From: Saprospiraceae bacterium
GTDB lineage: Bacteria > Bacteroidota > Bacteroidia > Chitinophagales > Saprospiraceae
DNA: 64,000 bases
Assembly: GCA_019187225.1 (NCBI GenBank)
Contig: JABAQQ010000023.1
Span: 1-64,000 of the forward strand
Direction: 5' to 3'
A program made the translations under genes and the position numbers. Shown one piece after another: positions 56,718 to 64,000 of the stretch. Below the pieces are notes generated by a model. The model had not been told where the DNA came from. It ran no database searches and saw only the letters and a list, made by a program, of their open reading frames with translations. Numbering within the stretch: the first letter of the stretch is position 1; the number at the start of each line of letters is the position of its first letter.

Positions 56718-57851
56718 TCAGGACTTAGTCTTCCTCGGCAAATGCGACACCGGCTTCACTACCGGCCGGTCGGCATTCAACGCGTGAATGAGGTCGTCGA
56801 GGGCCTTTTCAAAGGCAGCGTCATCTTGCCAGTTGCGGAAATCGCCGATAACGCGTTGTTTGATGGTCATGCGCTTGCCGTTGGTCCAGGTGTCGATATG
56901 GTCGTCAATCCGGATCGGAATCAAAAGTCCGATTTTTTCGCCGGCTTCTTTTTGCAGGTTTCGCTCCTTCTCGAAGACCAGTTCCAGTTCCTGATCGACC
57001 CACCAACTGTTGAGGGAATCTTCGGAGCAGACCAAGATGGTTTTGTCGTAGAGTTCGATGCCGCGGCTGAGGCCGGTGAAAATATCATCGCCGGGCTTCA
57101 TTTTCTTTTCATCGAAAAAGACGTTGACGCCGCGGGCGATGAGGGCTTCGTAGAGTTTGCGGGCGAAGGGTTTGTTGGCGTGGGAGTGGGAGAGGAATGC
57201 TGGATAAAGGCGGATGCCTTCGGGTTGGAAAAAATCGGGGAGGTAGTCGAGGTAGAGTTCGGGGAGGCCGATTTTGAGGAGGAAGGATTTGGGGAGGTTG
57301 CGGGATGCGCGGAGGGTTTGGAAGTCGATGGAGCAGGGCTGCTCTACTTGTACTGTTTCAAGACCTCTGCAGGTGCTTAGGTTGGTCAAACTGAAAACAG
57401 TGCCTCCAATTTTGGCATCGGTTAAATCAGAGTCATCTAGGTCAGCACGTAACAGGTTGGCGATGTTCAAGTCTGCGGCTTTAAGATTGGCATTGGAAAG
57501 GTCTGCGTAAGTCATGTTGGCACCTGATAGTTTGGTTCGTGAAAGGTTGGCATTATTTAAGTCGGTGTTGGATAAGTTGGTGCGTGCCAGATTAGCGCGT
57601 GATAGGTTGGTACCGGTCAGGTTAACAAAGTTCATTCCCGCGCCAGACAAGTCGGCGCCGAACAAGTTGGCGTAGGATAAGTTGGCGCCAATCAGCCTGG
57701 GGATGGAGTCGATCCTGCCAACTGTACACAATTCAACGCTGGTCAGGTTCGCGTTGGATAGATCGGGTGAAATATTACTATTGTCCTCCCTCCACTTATT
57801 CCATACGTCCACTCCTCCTTTTAAAATTGCAAGATGTTCAGCATTTGCCAT
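56718..57851 (-). CDS. Pentapeptide-repeat protein with C-terminal TIR domain
   Basis: The 377-residue protein begins with a header, HLAILKGGVDVWNKWREDN, before pentapeptide repeats A(N/D)LxX at about 30-155, interrupted by a short insert at 41-55. The right-handed beta-helix is followed by a linker and a TIR domain (about 215-345) opening with YPAFLSHSHANKPFA. The predicted NADase glutamate lies in the WxxxE motif SWWVDQE (Trp284, Glu288). TIR proteins in defence hydrolyse NAD+ or make signalling nucleotides. It is the last of three related genes reading away from hsdM, with a 20-bp gap. Function in defence is inference from context. Confidence 0.88.
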   Translation of the reverse strand: MANAEHLAILKGGVDVWNKWREDNSNISPDLSNANLTSVELCTVGRIDSIPRLIGANLSYANLFGADLSGAGMNFVNLTGTNLSRANLARTNLSNTDLNNANLSRTKLSGANMTYADLSNANLKAADLNIANLLRADLDDSDLTDAKIGGTVFSLTNLSTCRGLETVQVEQPCSIDFQTLRASRNLPKSFLLKIGLPELYLDYLPDFFQPEGIRLYPAFLSHSHANKPFARKLYEALIARGVNVFFDEKKMKPGDDIFTGLSRGIELYDKTILVCSEDSLNSWWVDQELELVFEKERNLQKEAGEKIGLLIPIRIDDHIDTWTNGKRMTIKQRVIGDFRNWQDDAAFEKALDDLIHALNADRPVVKPVSHLPRKTKS

Positions 57852-57871
57852 ATTGATTCGTTTTCAAGTTG

Positions 57872-59500
57872 TTACAAAAGCGACTTCGGCTTCACATCCG
57901 GTCTATCCGCGTTCAACGCATGAACCAAATCGTTCAGGGATTTTTCAAACGCCCCGTCATCCTGCCAGTTGCGGAAATCGCCGATGAAGCGTTGCCTGAT
58001 AGCCATGCGCTTGCCATCCTTCCAGTTGTATATGTGGTCATCAATGGTTATCGGGATCAATAGTCCAATTTTTTCGCCGATTTCTTTTTTCAGGGCACGT
58101 TCCTTTTCCATGACCATTTCCAGTTCCTGATCGACCCACCAACTATTGAGGGATTCCTCGGAGCAGACCAGTATGGTTTTGTCGTAGAGTTCGATGCCGC
58201 GACTGAGGCTGGTAAAGATATCGTCGCCGGGTTTGAGTTTCTTTTCGTCAAAGAAAACATTTACACCTTTTGCAATCAGAGATTCATAAAGCTTTCGAGC
58301 AAAATCCTTATTTGCCCAAGAGTGGGAAAGAAAAACAGGATATAAAGGAAGCTCTGATGAGGCTGCGTCTTTTAGATAATGGTCTATAATTGAGATAGGA
58401 GTGCCAATTTTTTTTAAAAATTCTCTCGATAGGTTTTTTGTAATTTTTAATGTTCTAAAGTCAAGGGTACACTCAGAATCAACATTAATGAACTCAAGGC
58501 CAATACATTCTGATAGATCTGTATTTGCAAATATGGTGTTACTCAATATACAATGACTGAAATTAGTATTCTTAATCTTTCCTCCACGGATAGTAGCTCC
58601 ACTTAAGTTAGATTCTTTTAATATTGCGTTAGTCATATTCGAATCGAATATTAAAGCTCCTGTAAGATCAGTCTGACTTAAATTGGCATTGACCATTTCC
58701 GTGCTCTTTAAATACGATCCGATAAAAGTTGCACCAGTAATATTCGCATCATTAAGATTAGTGTAAGTTAAAAAGGCCCCAGACAGACATGCCTCCTTCA
58801 ATTGAGTCCGCTCTAATGTGCTTTCCGTAAGATCAGCATCAGTTAGATTGGCTTTAAATAAATTTGCTTCATTAAGGTTAGAACGAGCCAAATTAGCAGC
58901 TGTTAGATCTGCTTTGTTCAAGTTAGCGTTTGAAAGATCCTTACCTTGCAATTGAGCTTTGCTTAAATTTGGGATGATTTGTGGATTCCGTTCCCGCCAT
59001 TTGTTCCAAACTTCAACACCCCTATTAAGAACAGGGATATGCGACCTTGTAATCGAACTAATAGCTTCAACTATATCTATGAGTTTTGAATTCCAATGAC
59101 TGTTACTAAGTTCGTACCCCTTGTATTTTATCAGTTTCTGAATACTCTTAGGTATTTCATTTGATGAAGGAAATTGCGCGCCACCAACAATTAATGGAAT
59201 AATTGGAACTTGATTTTCAATTGCGAGTTCTACTTCCAATCTTACGATATCATCCGGGTCGAAAAGCCTCATTCTACCCTTTGGTTTCCTTGCCCAACTG
59301 TTTCCTATTAATGCTAAAAATACTGCGCAATCTGGCACTACTCGTCGGACCCAATCAATTAGTTCTTCAGCAGTACCGGCAACTTCTTCATCAAAAAGGA
59401 CATATTCCTTTCCAAAAGTCTTCACTAAATTGTCGTAAAGCCTACCTGCGTACCCTGCAGTGTCTTGTCTTCGGTAGCTAATGAATATTTCGTACGCCAT
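57872..59500 (-). CDS. TIR - pentapeptide repeat - TIR protein
   Basis: The 542-residue protein has two different TIR domains. The first (1-150) starts IFISYRRQDTAGYAGRLYD and has candidate catalytic acids Glu89/Glu91 in VRLEVELA. The WN-W header (HIPVLNRGVEVWNKW) at about 154-170 and pentapeptide repeats (178-335) follow. The second TIR (about 385-515) is almost identical in sequence to the C-terminal TIR of the neighbouring gene and keeps WxxxE (Trp455, Glu459). DNA encoding the first two-thirds is clearly AT-rich, while the second TIR is GC-richer, indicating a mosaic. The gene is co-oriented with its neighbours, 20-26 bp apart. Confidence 0.9.
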   Translation of the reverse strand: MAYEIFISYRRQDTAGYAGRLYDNLVKTFGKEYVLFDEEVAGTAEELIDWVRRVVPDCAVFLALIGNSWARKPKGRMRLFDPDDIVRLEVELAIENQVPIIPLIVGGAQFPSSNEIPKSIQKLIKYKGYELSNSHWNSKLIDIVEAISSITRSHIPVLNRGVEVWNKWRERNPQIIPNLSKAQLQGKDLSNANLNKADLTAANLARSNLNEANLFKANLTDADLTESTLERTQLKEACLSGAFLTYTNLNDANITGATFIGSYLKSTEMVNANLSQTDLTGALIFDSNMTNAILKESNLSGATIRGGKIKNTNFSHCILSNTIFANTDLSECIGLEFINVDSECTLDFRTLKITKNLSREFLKKIGTPISIIDHYLKDAASSELPLYPVFLSHSWANKDFARKLYESLIAKGVNVFFDEKKLKPGDDIFTSLSRGIELYDKTILVCSEESLNSWWVDQELEMVMEKERALKKEIGEKIGLLIPITIDDHIYNWKDGKRMAIRQRFIGDFRNWQDDGAFEKSLNDLVHALNADRPDVKPKSLL

Positions 59501-59526
59501 TATAAGTTATGAGTTTAACTTAGAGT

Positions 59527-60567
59527 TTACTTTTTATTCCGTATCTCCTGCACCTTCCGCTCCGCCGGATCAATTACCCCAATCGAAAGATTTTCAATCA
59601 AATGGGCCTCTCCATCATATTCAAACACAGACAACACCCAGGGATAACGCGGCCAATGCTCAAACATACTGTATTCCTGTTGTCCTTTCAAGATGAGCGG
59701 GATGACCGGCAGACTAGGCATGTTGGGAACGATGTGACTGAGTTCCTGTGGAATACTTTTCGCGTCTGTCAAGTCGGCGATGACGAACCGCGACAACTTC
59801 GCCAAAATGGAAACGGTCTCCGTCAGGTCACGGGTAGCCGGTTTTTCAAAGTCAAAAAGAATGGGTAGAAAATTGCGGCTGCGTAGTTCGTCGCGGATGG
59901 CGTCGAGTATCTTTTTTCGCTCTTCGGTGAAGCGACCGAGTATTAAAACGGCTTTAGAGGTGACGGCTTCGATGACGTCGCGGAATTTTTGATTGTTGAG
60001 GAGGAGGTAGATGAATTGGGCAATTTCAAGATCATCAATGGTGATTGCTTCAAAACTGGTATATGGTGCAATTATCAAGTCTTGTTGTTTGAGCCCGTCT
60101 TTTTTGATATCCCAAACATTAATTCCATAGATGTTAGAATCTATGATGGTCGCATTTTCAAGATTGGTTCCCACCAAGTTAGCATTACGTAAGTCGGCTT
60201 TGCTTAAGTCAGCACCGCGCAAGTCGGCAGCAAACAGATTCGCTCGATCGAGGTAGGCACCGTATAGGTCTGCCTTAACTAGGCAAGTATAGTATAACAA
60301 GGCCTCGCTCAAAGAAGCACCACCCAGATTAGCTCTATGTAAATTGGCCCAACTCAAGTCCGCTTTTGTCAGGTTTGCACCACTTAAATTGGCCCCGTCC
60401 AAATTAGTCTTGGTAAGATTGGCCATGCTTAAATTAACCCGGAACAGATTGGCGCCAGTAAGATCGGCCTCGCTCAGGTCAGGCACCAAAGATTCATTTT
60501 CCCTTCTCCACCTATTCCATGCCTCCACCCCTTCCTTCAATTTCGCCAAATGCTCCGGATTTGCCAT
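59527..60567 (-). CDS. Pentapeptide-repeat protein with TIR-like C-terminal domain
   Basis: The 346-residue protein starts with the same header, EHLAKLKEGVEAWNRWRREN, and has an unusually regular pentapeptide helix (30-150). A connector (160-205) leads to an alpha/beta domain at about 205-325 containing SKAVLILGRFTEERKK, LPILFDFEKP, RFVIADLTDAKSIPQEL and a final PVIPLIL strand. The pattern is Rossmann/TIR- or nucleoside-deoxyribosyltransferase-like. It recurs after pentapeptide helices in diverse bacteria, but I know of no assigned function. It is 29 bp downstream of hsdM, so it is the first of the three accessory genes. Confidence 0.86.
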   Translation of the reverse strand: MANPEHLAKLKEGVEAWNRWRRENESLVPDLSEADLTGANLFRVNLSMANLTKTNLDGANLSGANLTKADLSWANLHRANLGGASLSEALLYYTCLVKADLYGAYLDRANLFAADLRGADLSKADLRNANLVGTNLENATIIDSNIYGINVWDIKKDGLKQQDLIIAPYTSFEAITIDDLEIAQFIYLLLNNQKFRDVIEAVTSKAVLILGRFTEERKKILDAIRDELRSRNFLPILFDFEKPATRDLTETVSILAKLSRFVIADLTDAKSIPQELSHIVPNMPSLPVIPLILKGQQEYSMFEHWPRYPWVLSVFEYDGEAHLIENLSIGVIDPAERKVQEIRNKK

Positions 60568-60596
60568 AACTTCAAAGTTTTAAAATGTGAAATTAT

Positions 60597-62078
60597 TTAT
60601 TTCTCTTCCAACTCCCCCAACAACTCCCGAAAACTCGCCAGCCCTGCCTCCAGATTCTCCACGATCTCTAAAGCCAGCACATCCGGGTCGGGCAGGTTGT
60701 CGAGATCGGCGAGGGACTTGTCTTTTATCCAGAAGATGTCGAGGCTGGTTTTGTCGCGGGCGAGGATGTCGTCGTAGGAGAATTTGCGCCAGCGGCCGTC
60801 GGGGTTGTCGGGCGACCAGGTTTCGGTGCGCACGTGGCGGTTTTCGGGGTTGTAGCACCGGATGAAATCTTGAAGGTCTTCGAAGCGGAGCGGGTTTTTC
60901 TTTTGGGTGAAGTGGATGTTGGTACGGAAGTCGTAAATCCAGACCGCTTTCGTCCAGGGGTCTTTTTGAGCGGGCTTGTTGTCGAAGAAAAGGACGTTGG
61001 CCTTGACGCCACCCGCGTAGAACAGGCCGGTGGGCAGGCGCAGGATGGTGTGCAGGTCGGTATTTTGCATCAACTTCTTGCGCACCGTCTCGCCGGCGCC
61101 GCCCTCGAACAGGACGTTGTCGGGCACTACGACCGCGGCTTCGCCGTTGATTTTGAGGATGGTGCGGATGTGCTGGACGAAGTTCAGTTGTTTATTGGAC
61201 GTGGAAGCCCAGAAATCCTGCCGGTTGTAACTGAGTTCTTCTTTTACCTCTTCCCCTTCATTGTTGGTGCTGGTCATCGAGGATTTTTTGCCGAAAGGCG
61301 GATTGGCCAGCACATAGTCGAAGCGTTTGCCGGGATCGGCGATGAGGGCGTCGTTGCGGTGGATGTCGGGTTCGTGGTCGAGGTCACCGATGTTGTGCAG
61401 GAAGAGGTTCATGAGGCACAAGCGGTGCGTGCCGGCCACGATCTCCCAGCCGTGGAAAGTCTCGTATTTGAGGAAGTGCTTCTGGTCCCGGTCGAGTTGG
61501 TAGTTTTGGGTGAGGAAGTCGTACGCCGCAAGAAAAAAGCCTCCGGTGCCCGCGCTTGGGTCGGCGATGGTTTTCCCGGGTTCGGGGCGCACACATTCCA
61601 CCATAGCTCGGATAAGTGCGCGGGGCGTGAAATACTGCCCGGCGCCGCTTTTGGTGTCCTCGGCGTTCTTTTCCAGCAGTCCTTCGTAGATGTCGCCCTT
61701 GACGTCGGCGCCCATCATCACCCAACTTTCCTCGTCGATCATCTGGATGACCTTGTACAGTTTGGCGGGGTCCTGGATTTTGTTCTGGGCCTTGAAGAAT
61801 ATCTCGCCCAGCATGCCGCCCTGCTTGCCGAGTTCGCGCAGCAGGGTCACGTAGTGGGTTTCCAGTTCGGCGCCGCGGCGGCTGCGCAGGCTCTCCCAGT
61901 TGTACTCCGCCGGTATTTTGATGTCGCGGTTGTACGGTGGTTTGGCGTACTCGTCGGCCATTTTGAGAAAGAGCAGAAAAGTCAGTTGCTCCAGGTAATC
62001 GCCATAACTCACCCCGTCGTCGCGGAGGACGTTGCAGAAGGACCAGACGCGGGAGATGATGGAGGAGGTGTTGGACAT
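60597..62078 (-). CDS. hsdM: Type I restriction-modification methyltransferase subunit HsdM
   Basis: From MSNTSSIISRVWSF the protein has 493 residues; an upstream frame running into the repeat array was rejected. It has the N-terminal HsdM_N helical domain (about 1-140) and the N6-adenine methylase core with SAM motif I ADPSAGTGG (172-180) and the catalytic NPPFG (259-263). GQYFTPR (148-154) is also typical. It should methylate adenines at the site chosen by HsdS and work with an HsdR nuclease, which is not in the window. Unusually, hsdS lies upstream rather than downstream, separated by the repeat array. Confidence 0.96.
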   Translation of the reverse strand: MSNTSSIISRVWSFCNVLRDDGVSYGDYLEQLTFLLFLKMADEYAKPPYNRDIKIPAEYNWESLRSRRGAELETHYVTLLRELGKQGGMLGEIFFKAQNKIQDPAKLYKVIQMIDEESWVMMGADVKGDIYEGLLEKNAEDTKSGAGQYFTPRALIRAMVECVRPEPGKTIADPSAGTGGFFLAAYDFLTQNYQLDRDQKHFLKYETFHGWEIVAGTHRLCLMNLFLHNIGDLDHEPDIHRNDALIADPGKRFDYVLANPPFGKKSSMTSTNNEGEEVKEELSYNRQDFWASTSNKQLNFVQHIRTILKINGEAAVVVPDNVLFEGGAGETVRKKLMQNTDLHTILRLPTGLFYAGGVKANVLFFDNKPAQKDPWTKAVWIYDFRTNIHFTQKKNPLRFEDLQDFIRCYNPENRHVRTETWSPDNPDGRWRKFSYDDILARDKTSLDIFWIKDKSLADLDNLPDPDVLALEIVENLEAGLASFRELLGELEEK

Positions 62079-62181
62079 GGGTGCGGTTTTTTCAGCAAAA
62101 GTAATGGGTTTGTTAAGGTATTGTTTTATCGTGTTGCGCAGGTGAGCGTCGATCATATTTGTAGAAAATGTGCATCATTGG
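62079..62181. other. Leader between the repeat array and hsdM
   Basis: About 100 bp between the first repeat of the array and the hsdM start. It holds no clear -7 box on the minus strand. An in-frame extension of hsdM exists here but is not supported by the family's N-terminus. Confidence 0.5.
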
Positions 62182-62884
62182 AGGGGCAGCGCCCCGACAA
62201 TATTTGTAGTAGCAACGAACACAAAGCCGTAGTGGAGGGGCAGCCCCCCGACATATTTGTAGCAACGAACACAAAGCCGTAGTGGAGGGGCAGCCCCCCG
62301 ACATATTTGTAGCAACGAACACAAAGCCGTGGTGGAGGGGCAGCCCCCCGACATATTTGTAGCAACGAACACAAACCCGTGATGCAGGGGCAGCCCCCCG
62401 ACATATTTGTAGCAACGAACACAAAGCCGTGATGCAGGGGCAGCGCCCCGACAATATTTGTAGCAACGAACACAAACCCGTGATGCAGGGGCAGCGCCCC
62501 GACAATATTTGTAGCAACGAACACAAACCCGTGATGCAGGGGCAGCGCCCCGACAATATTTGTAGATCGACGTCCCATCGTATCGTAAAGGGGCAGCGCC
62601 CCGACAACATTTATAGAATTGTGCGCCCGTGTATCGCAGAGGGGCAGCGCCCCGGTAATATTTGTAGATCGACGCCCCATCGTATCGTAAAGGGGCAGCG
62701 CCCCGACAACATTTGTAGAATTGTGCGCCCGTGTATCGCAGAGGGGCAGCGCCCCGACAACATTTGTAGAATTGTGCGCCCGTGTATCGCAAAGGGGCAG
62801 CGCCCCGACAATATATTCCGGGGCGCTGCCCCTCCGTGACATATTGACACACGATCCTACAAATATTACCGGGGCGCTGCCCCT
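62182..62884. repeat. Array of 15 GC-hairpin repeats (13 direct, 2 inverted)
   Basis: Each 27-28-bp unit is AGGGGCAGCGCCCCG followed by an A/T-rich stretch ending in TTTGTAG. The GGGGC/GCCCC hairpin has an AGC loop; four early copies read AGCCCCCCG instead. Starts: 62182, 62236, 62286, 62336, 62386, 62436, 62487, 62538, 62589, 62640, 62691, 62742, 62793, then inverted copies at 62819-62833 and 62857-62884. Period is 50-51 bp. Spacers are about 23 bp but belong to only three types: one beginning CAACGAACAC (seven times), ATCGACG (twice) and AATTGTGCGC (three times). The last inverted copy overlaps the hsdS stop codon. Four long reading frames cross it; I regard them as fortuitous because 51 is divisible by 3. 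Confidence 0.97.
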
Positions 62885-64000
62885 ATTTCACCAATTTCCC
62901 CTCAAACGCCCGCTTCAAAATACTCTGCCGCAACGCTTCGGATTGCTGCAAGGCTTGCGTGATGGTTTCTTCGAGTTTGTCGCAGACGGACAAGCGGGAT
63001 TCGATTTCCTGGACGATGCGGTGTTGTTCCTCCAGAGACGGTATGAAAATTGGAATGCTGCTAACAATTTTCAAATTCAAATTTGTCATCGTCGTTCCCC
63101 CTGCATTTAGTTCAAGATATTTTTTACAATGGTCACTTCTTAATTGGTAGTACAGAAACGTGGAATCAACTCTTTGTCGTGGTCTAACGAATAGGCTTCC
63201 GGTACCGCAAAACCAGCCATTTTCTTTTTCTGTAACAAGGCCACATCTACCCATTTCTCCTCTTCTTCCCATTATTACATCACCTGCTTTCAATATGTAA
63301 TTGGGCAAGCTGTCTCTTTTCGAAATTGAAATTGAATATTTGAAATCGGGTAAAATCTCACCGTCTTTTAAGTGCATTGGGTTTATTAAAGGGATACCAT
63401 TTTCAATATAATCTTCCTGATGCAATTGGCTGCCAAATGGGCCTATTTGAATTTTTTCTGAAACATCTTTCAATAAATTCGTTTCATCCTCATTCCCCTC
63501 AAACGCCCACTTCAGCACCGCTTGCCGGTACACCTTGAGTTGTGCCTGGGCGGTTTTCAGTTGCGCGATGCCATTGTCCAACTGGCTGAACAAGGCTTCG
63601 ATTTTGGCGACGATGCGGTGTTGCTCGGGGAGGGGTGGTATTGGGATGTCAAGATTTTTCAAAATACCCTGACTAATATTAGGCTGTGCTCCCCCAATAC
63701 CTTGTTTAACCAGATCCGCTTTGCTGAAAAACAGAAATTGATACAAGTATTTTGGGTCAATTTTTTCGCTTTCAAATATGCCACAAACGGCTTGATTAGT
63801 TGCTGCATCTATACCGAGGAATGCAAGTTTTCCAATTGTAGCTCCGTAAAGTGCTATCAGCAAAGTGCCTTTTGGGAATATTTTCGCGCTTGAGTTTTTA
63901 ATAGCCGCTTCTGTGATTTTTTCTTCGGTATCTGTTATCAATCCCTTATCCAATTCCCCTGACTTAACCCAAGGGATATGCCCATTATAAAAGTTAGGGT
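62883..64000 (-). CDS. hsdS: Type I restriction-modification specificity subunit HsdS (partial, 5' end outside window)
   Basis: The frame is open to the edge, and the first residues read here are PNFYNGHIPWVKSGEL. That is a TRD start like GxIPWVKSGE, so the true start is beyond 64000. Two target-recognition domains are present. The first conserved helix segment is PLPEQHRIVAKIEALFSQLD...YRQAVLKWAFEG and the second is EEQHRIVQEIESRLS...LRQSILKRAFEGKLVK, ending at TAG. The TRD DNA is AT-rich while the helical spacers are GC-richer, typical of domain swapping. HsdS recognises the DNA sequence for HsdM/HsdR. At least 372 residues are inside the window. Confidence 0.94.
   Translation of the reverse strand, partial: PNFYNGHIPWVKSGELDKGLITDTEEKITEAAIKNSSAKIFPKGTLLIALYGATIGKLAFLGIDAATNQAVCGIFESEKIDPKYLYQFLFFSKADLVKQGIGGAQPNISQGILKNLDIPIPPLPEQHRIVAKIEALFSQLDNGIAQLKTAQAQLKVYRQAVLKWAFEGNEDETNLLKDVSEKIQIGPFGSQLHQEDYIENGIPLINPMHLKDGEILPDFKYSISISKRDSLPNYILKAGDVIMGRRGEMGRCGLVTEKENGWFCGTGSLFVRPRQRVDSTFLYYQLRSDHCKKYLELNAGGTTMTNLNLKIVSSIPIFIPSLEEQHRIVQEIESRLSVCDKLEETITQALQQSEALRQSILKRAFEGKLVK

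Follow-up and report, generated by a model that had tools for sequence, protein, structure and literature searches.

Three genes, here called A, B and C, follow a complete type I restriction-modification operon at its 3' end in this Saprospiraceae bacterium, and homologous genes are repeatedly placed next to restriction enzymes, which fall into four kinds or lineages. The three proteins share a short header and a pentapeptide solenoid, and each carries one or two effector domains. Mobile sensor-effector genes of this kind have probably been recruited to restriction systems repeatedly, where they may serve as a back-up that depletes NAD+ or nucleotides. In this study, we tentatively read A, B and C as accessory sensor-effectors, a PrrC- or PARIS-like back-up of the type I system.

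Layout of the type I locus

The window, which is the whole stretch of 64,000 nucleotides that was analysed, is the first 64 kb of contig C2. The genome measures 7.18 Mb in 73 contigs. The features of the locus are as follows.

Contig positions 64097-66970, just past the window end: hsdR (Pfam EcoEI_R_C, ResIII, HSDR_N)
62883..64000, minus strand: hsdS, type I specificity subunit (Pfam Methylase_S, 1.9e-38)
62181..62814 (0.63 kb), between hsdS and hsdM: tandem array of the palindrome GGGGCAGCGCCCC, unit of about 51 bp (TRF)
60597..62078, minus strand: hsdM, type I N6-adenine methyltransferase subunit (Pfam N6_Mtase 5.3e-69, HsdM_N; PADLOC MTase_I 3.9e-197)
59527..60567, minus strand: gene A, 346 aa; WNRWR header (helical), pentapeptide solenoid and C-terminal domain with a possible nucleoside-transferase/MilB/TIR-like fold; candidate catalytic Glu275
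57872..59500, minus strand: gene B, 542 aa; TIR, WNKWR header, pentapeptide solenoid, TIR; candidate catalytic Glu89 and Glu459
56718..57851, minus strand: gene C, 377 aa; WNKWR header, pentapeptide solenoid, TIR; candidate catalytic Glu288

A sequence-only reading of this DNA had described hsdM and three co-oriented genes separated by gaps of 29, 26 and 20 bp, and the coordinates, strand and gaps were all reproduced. A possible ATG start of hsdS was found at 64094, 94 bases past the window end and 2 bp from hsdR. Because hsdR was found just outside the window beside hsdS and hsdM, the type I system is complete, and all three of its genes (hsdR, hsdS and hsdM) are present.

The palindrome array splits hsdS from hsdM, so hsdM-A-B-C may be a separate transcript. 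The genome contains 39 sites of the GGGGCAGCGCCCC type (19-base pattern, at most 1 mismatch). Eight of these are exact and confined to the array, 30 end in GAAAA and are dispersed, and one has GACAG. A conserved promoter before hsdM was considered and dropped, since the motif TAnnTTTG at 62103 was one of two strand matches in 7.3 kb, which is the chance level. Sigma-70 and terminator scans of the locus gave scores not clearly above those of shuffles.

Domains of the three accessory proteins

A common WN-W-R header followed by a pentapeptide helix had been read in all three proteins, and both parts are present in A, B and C. The header starts at residue 17 of A (WNRWR), residue 165 of B (WNKWR) and residue 17 of C (WNKWR), and it is followed by Pfam pentapeptide repeats (E 1e-35, 2e-28 and 3e-23, respectively). 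In the structure model of A, the header forms two short helices that precede the solenoid. It was rejected as a signature special to this locus: the same motif or a variant recurs, by eye, in many homologous pentapeptide proteins.

The effectors had been named as TIR-like in A, TIR plus TIR in B and TIR in C. For B and C this held, with Pfam TIR_2 matching once in C (9e-22) and in two stretches of B; A resembles a TIR in fold alone. The C-terminal TIR profile matched the NAD+ hydrolase AbTIR at E ~1e-10 with the WxxxE glutamate aligned, and C carries WVDQE as its WxxxE motif. The N-terminal TIR of B, which has low confidence in the AF2 model, aligned weakly with TIR-1/SARM1 (E 0.005; TIR-1 is an NAD+ hydrolase), with Glu89 opposite a Glu. 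With both the sequence match and the WxxxE glutamate found, B and C are putative TIR NAD+ hydrolases.

The WxxxE glutamate was kept in 40 of 48 C-type rows, that is, rows of genes homologous to C. The eight rows without it were seven genes of family f37, which we take to be Chlorobia, and L099. All nine restriction-linked rows among the 48 retain it. The seven f37 genes (L171, L172, L173, L175, L176, L178 and L182) encode TIR-pentapeptide proteins of about 500-550 aa whose flanking genes are common by eye and whose glutamate is lost.

The repeats vary more than the effectors. Between B and C, protein identity reaches 79% for the TIR and 33% for the repeats. Near the 3' ends of these genes, the DNA of B (57875-58342) and C (56739-57206) is 77.6% identical over 468 bases, which suggests that a TIR segment was exchanged between the neighbouring genes. 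The mean pairwise identity was 62% for effectors versus 38% for repeats in the C type (6 rows), and 59% versus 33% in the A type (7 rows). These values fit a recognition arm that changes while the effector stays conserved.

The C-terminal domain of A is an unnamed, enzyme-like domain and the least explained part of the system. It was rejected as a TIR by sequence: searches of Pfam (E up to 1, C-terminal 202 residues), NCBIfam and PADLOC returned no TIR, and hhalign against the C-type TIR profile gave a probability of 0.1. The model of this domain resembles nucleotide N-glycosidases (MilB), nucleoside transferases and TIRs, and flavodoxin-like proteins score almost as high (12.0-12.4). The CMP N-glycosidases MilB and BcmB and the protein DNPH1 differ from A in that they have no sequence match to it and that A is fused to a pentapeptide solenoid. 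The candidate Glu275 was kept in all 14 covering rows of a 17-row alignment and stands just before helix 276-282 of the model; the nucleoside 2-deoxyribosyltransferase/MilB family is recognised by a Glu that opens the helix following the central strand. The domain is present in at least three phyla, chromosomally as well as on plasmids.

Homologues and their restriction neighbours

The three-gene neighbourhood near hsdMS had been proposed as something to look for in other genomes, and the A-B-C set was found nowhere else. Among 87 N6_Mtase matches in 60 genomes, the window's own included, an A-type gene adjoined two by eye, both in the window's own genome. Elsewhere, where a pentapeptide gene and an N6_Mtase match shared a contig, the closest approach was about 9 kb (G022, by eye). 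A-B-C was absent at seven hsdM orthologues of 55-94% identity (tblastn E up to 1e-3 over the fetched stretch; in L214 the contig stops about 0.5 kb behind hsdM). One of these hsdM genes is 93.7% identical and lies in the same hsdR-hsdS-hsdM order. A conserved hsdM-A-B-C system was thus not found in the relatives, and the seven orthologous loci indicate that A-B-C is an accessory acquisition which restriction does not need. In four orthologous type I systems (L211, L212, L214 and L218), the slot between hsdS and hsdM holds extra genes that differ by species.

The genome of the window holds three strong N6_Mtase matches of this kind; an A-type gene follows two of them, and the third is without one. 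The second such locus (L025, C2:207000-224000) is another type I system, with its A-type gene 23 bp behind hsdM. Compared with the window, HsdM is 28.6% and HsdR 25% identical, whereas the A proteins are 63% identical. The HsdM and HsdR proteins are far less alike than the A proteins, which indicates that A joined two unrelated type I systems. A PIN-domain gene lies between hsdS and hsdM of this second system (L025:6293-6664). The other two of the four A-type genes of the genome lie elsewhere.

Restriction genes near homologues were sought within up to 10 kb on each side by tblastn with ten reference sequences from the window's own genome and its relatives, so that the counts refer to these types and other types may escape. 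The census was drawn from the whole-genome search; the contig profile scan gave seven loci. The weakly matching L103 and the plasmid locus L186 are left out of the count, and the C-type genes of L152 and L168, missed by the gene caller, were recovered by tblastn. A restriction gene was detected at 8 of 44 C-type and 1 of 14 A-type loci outside the window, and in none of 20 other stretches of the same contigs used as controls. The C-type difference (8/44 vs 0/20) is weak at p 0.04 and the loci are related; within the controls' own sample it was 5/37 vs 0/20 (p 0.10). For that sample, flanks were taken for 37 C-type loci, and weaker or partial matches were left out, including full-span matches in G172, G211, G373 and G094:C68. 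Nineteen of the 20 controls lay about 37-44 kb from the gene and one (L204) directly adjoined the fetched stretch; none came from the genus of the window, though that genus holds three of the eight positive loci.

At six of the eight positive C-type loci the restriction gene directly adjoins, at L161 the C-type gene adjoins an enzyme fragment of type ISP, and at L177 the distance is 5.2 kb. The C-type gene is divergent from a type ISP enzyme in L028 and L091 and downstream of one in L145, L146 and L149, and in L093 it follows an MmeI-type enzyme after 11 bp. Three pairs of ISP and C-type domains lay within 1 kb, versus 0.03 expected under random placement, and come from three close relatives; these pairs may represent one event, because all fall in one small subclade. 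The tree of C-type rows required five changes of restriction label, with L177, whose MmeI-type gene lies at a distance of 5.2 kb, labelled unlinked for that reason. The linked rows are five of six in the clade of the window's genus, with three enzyme types, and four of eight in one f37 subclade.

In two species (L028:2157-3612 and L091:11661-13126), the type ISP enzyme also has next to it a gene pair that encodes a small protein together with one of caspase-like type, in which a GHG motif was read by eye. The L028 pair had no match in Pfam or NCBIfam. This pair is possibly another restriction-linked module.

Homologues scattered without defence neighbours had been named as a finding that would tell against a defence operon, and the picture was mixed. 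The search found no restriction gene near 36 of the 44 C-type genes or near 13 of the 14 A-type genes, and the others include genes directly beside restriction enzymes. In two species, one of them represented by the window's own genome, an A-type gene keeps the same gene context (L027 and L095), with neighbours which we take to be rny, zapA and pheT. Three plasmid records that carry a complete A-type gene were examined: two have TIR, macro, CHAT or DUF4231 genes nearby, and the third has no annotated restriction or defence-like neighbour. On a Vibrio pectenicida plasmid (L184:6911-10062), a TIR gene and a macro-domain gene precede the A-type gene, and conjugation genes are close by. One plasmid C-type TIR is surrounded by transposases and unnamed genes, with no annotated restriction neighbour. 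A-type genes were also present in two contigs of the viral collection, and the C-type profile had no match in that collection; the phage records likewise gave no match.

These distributions bear on what the genes do. It is a real possibility that A, B and C are independent defence genes of the TIR type, which would detect phage on their own and lie behind hsdM only because defence genes cluster and travel together. Most homologous loci have no detected restriction gene, the orthologous hsdM loci manage without A-B-C, and A-type genes occur near TIR, macro and CHAT genes on plasmids and in the two viral-collection contigs, all of which such a reading would explain; the plasmid neighbours, DUF4231 included, support a defence role but not the restriction link. 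However, direct adjacency at six of eight positive C-type loci is closer than island membership requires, and A has come to lie behind two hsdM genes that are unrelated to each other.

A housekeeping or signalling role, with a TIR-pentapeptide fusion unrelated to phage and an incidental proximity to hsdM, seems distinctly unlikely to us. The shared gene context of the A-type gene across two species would agree with it, as would the common flanks and lost glutamate of the seven f37 genes, but all nine restriction-linked rows retain the glutamate and fall outside the Glu-less f37 set in the tree. The pentapeptide helix had also been suggested as a DNA mimic. A, B and C do contain the right-handed pentapeptide solenoid of Qnr and MfpA, and QnrB1 and MfpA are among the solenoids matched by the model of A. 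The best solenoid matches of that model, however, are synthetic and cyanobacterial rather than Qnr, and the net charge of the pentapeptide segments is near neutral (A -4 over 117 residues, B -1 over 144, C -3 over 121), which does not favour the suggestion, since a strongly acidic, DNA-like surface is the mark of such mimics. We regard it as very improbable that these proteins are Qnr/MfpA-like mimics that regulate the restriction enzyme itself or protect against it.

Known systems and a possible guard of restriction

Each of the ingredients has a precedent, be it TIR effectors, pentapeptide proteins or the presence of effector genes within hsd loci. In the available portions of the literature, with subscription papers and preprints outside the search, no publication was found that combines TIR-pentapeptide proteins with restriction systems. 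One paper refers to fusions of Orc/Cdc6 proteins with either pentapeptide repeats or TIR (PMC10853773), and two others list pentapeptide repeats as variable parts of conflict systems (PMC7159879, PMC8195603). For Piscirickettsia plasmids, separate pentapeptide and TIR proteins are named as virulence factors (PMC6963756).

The closest precedents are described as follows. PrrC of EcoprrI (type IC) is encoded by an effector gene in the hsd locus and is activated when restriction is blocked (PMC12707154), and PARIS is an abortive system that senses an anti-restriction protein (PMC9122126). Both are presented as guardians that detect the inhibition of restriction (PMC12707154, PMC9122126).

PrrC resembles A, B and C in being an additional effector encoded within or next to a type I hsd locus. 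It acts as an anticodon nuclease on tRNA-Lys, whereas here three genes lie behind hsdM and their effectors are TIR or nucleoside-transferase-like; an anticodon nuclease domain was absent from A, B and C in Pfam, which returned pentapeptide repeats instead, with TIR in B and C. PARIS consists of the AAA ATPase AriA and the DUF4435 protein AriB, and the same back-up logic is proposed for A, B and C. Neither an AAA ATPase nor DUF4435 was found in A, B, C, hsdM, hsdS or the two genes beyond C (Pfam, E up to 0.01).

AbTIR, Thoeris ThsB and retron-TIR have the TIR domain and the WxxxE glutamate in common with B and C, in which, unlike in those proteins, the TIR is fused to a pentapeptide solenoid. 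The genes scanned included neither a ThsA-like partner nor a reverse transcriptase. ThsA was absent from the full PADLOC lists of A, B and C and from the best 25 matches of hsdM and hsdS, and the flanking genes belong to other Pfam families. The best PADLOC match of B (1.3e-16) and C (7e-13) was the candidate PDC-S66; this match is limited to profile positions 137-235 of 282, and the pentapeptide part lies outside it.

For the favoured reading of A, B and C as a back-up of restriction, we propose the following sequence of events, in which co-transcription, NADase activity, the trigger and growth arrest are what we infer. A, B and C would be made together with HsdM and remain inactive until a phage either blocks restriction or survives it. 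The header and pentapeptide solenoid would act as a variable recognition arm. The effector of B and C may be an NAD+-cleaving TIR, and that of A a nucleotide- or NAD-cleaving domain of nucleoside-transferase/TIR fold. Once triggered, these domains would deplete NAD+ or nucleotides, and the infected cell would be stopped.

The restriction partners of the type I, ISP and MmeI types all methylate adenine by means of an N6-methyltransferase. Because they are of unlike architecture and all methylate N6-adenine, a shared trigger would be likelier than the binding of one particular subunit. The common trigger would be an anti-restriction protein or DNA that survived.

The sequence-only reading had already suggested the locus as a two-tier system in which the accessory genes back up restriction. 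This idea gains from the TIR domains with their glutamate, the tight cluster and the homologues beside ISP, MmeI and a second type I enzyme; it loses from the uniqueness of the set and from the majority of loci with no detected restriction gene.

A broader version, which we consider rather unlikely, is that the header-pentapeptide-effector proteins form a modular escort family. One scaffold with exchangeable NAD- or nucleotide-destroying heads would have been recruited repeatedly to N6-adenine enzymes, namely two unrelated type I systems, ISP enzymes in two arrangements and the MmeI type. As a general guard, such proteins would kill once restriction had been put out of action or overwhelmed.

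If the back-up role is true, suicide back-ups tied to restriction would not be confined to PrrC and PARIS but would include TIR enzymes, and type ISP and MmeI-type systems would have them as well. The TIR-pentapeptide proteins, and the unnamed enzyme-like C-terminal domain of A, would then also have an assigned function.
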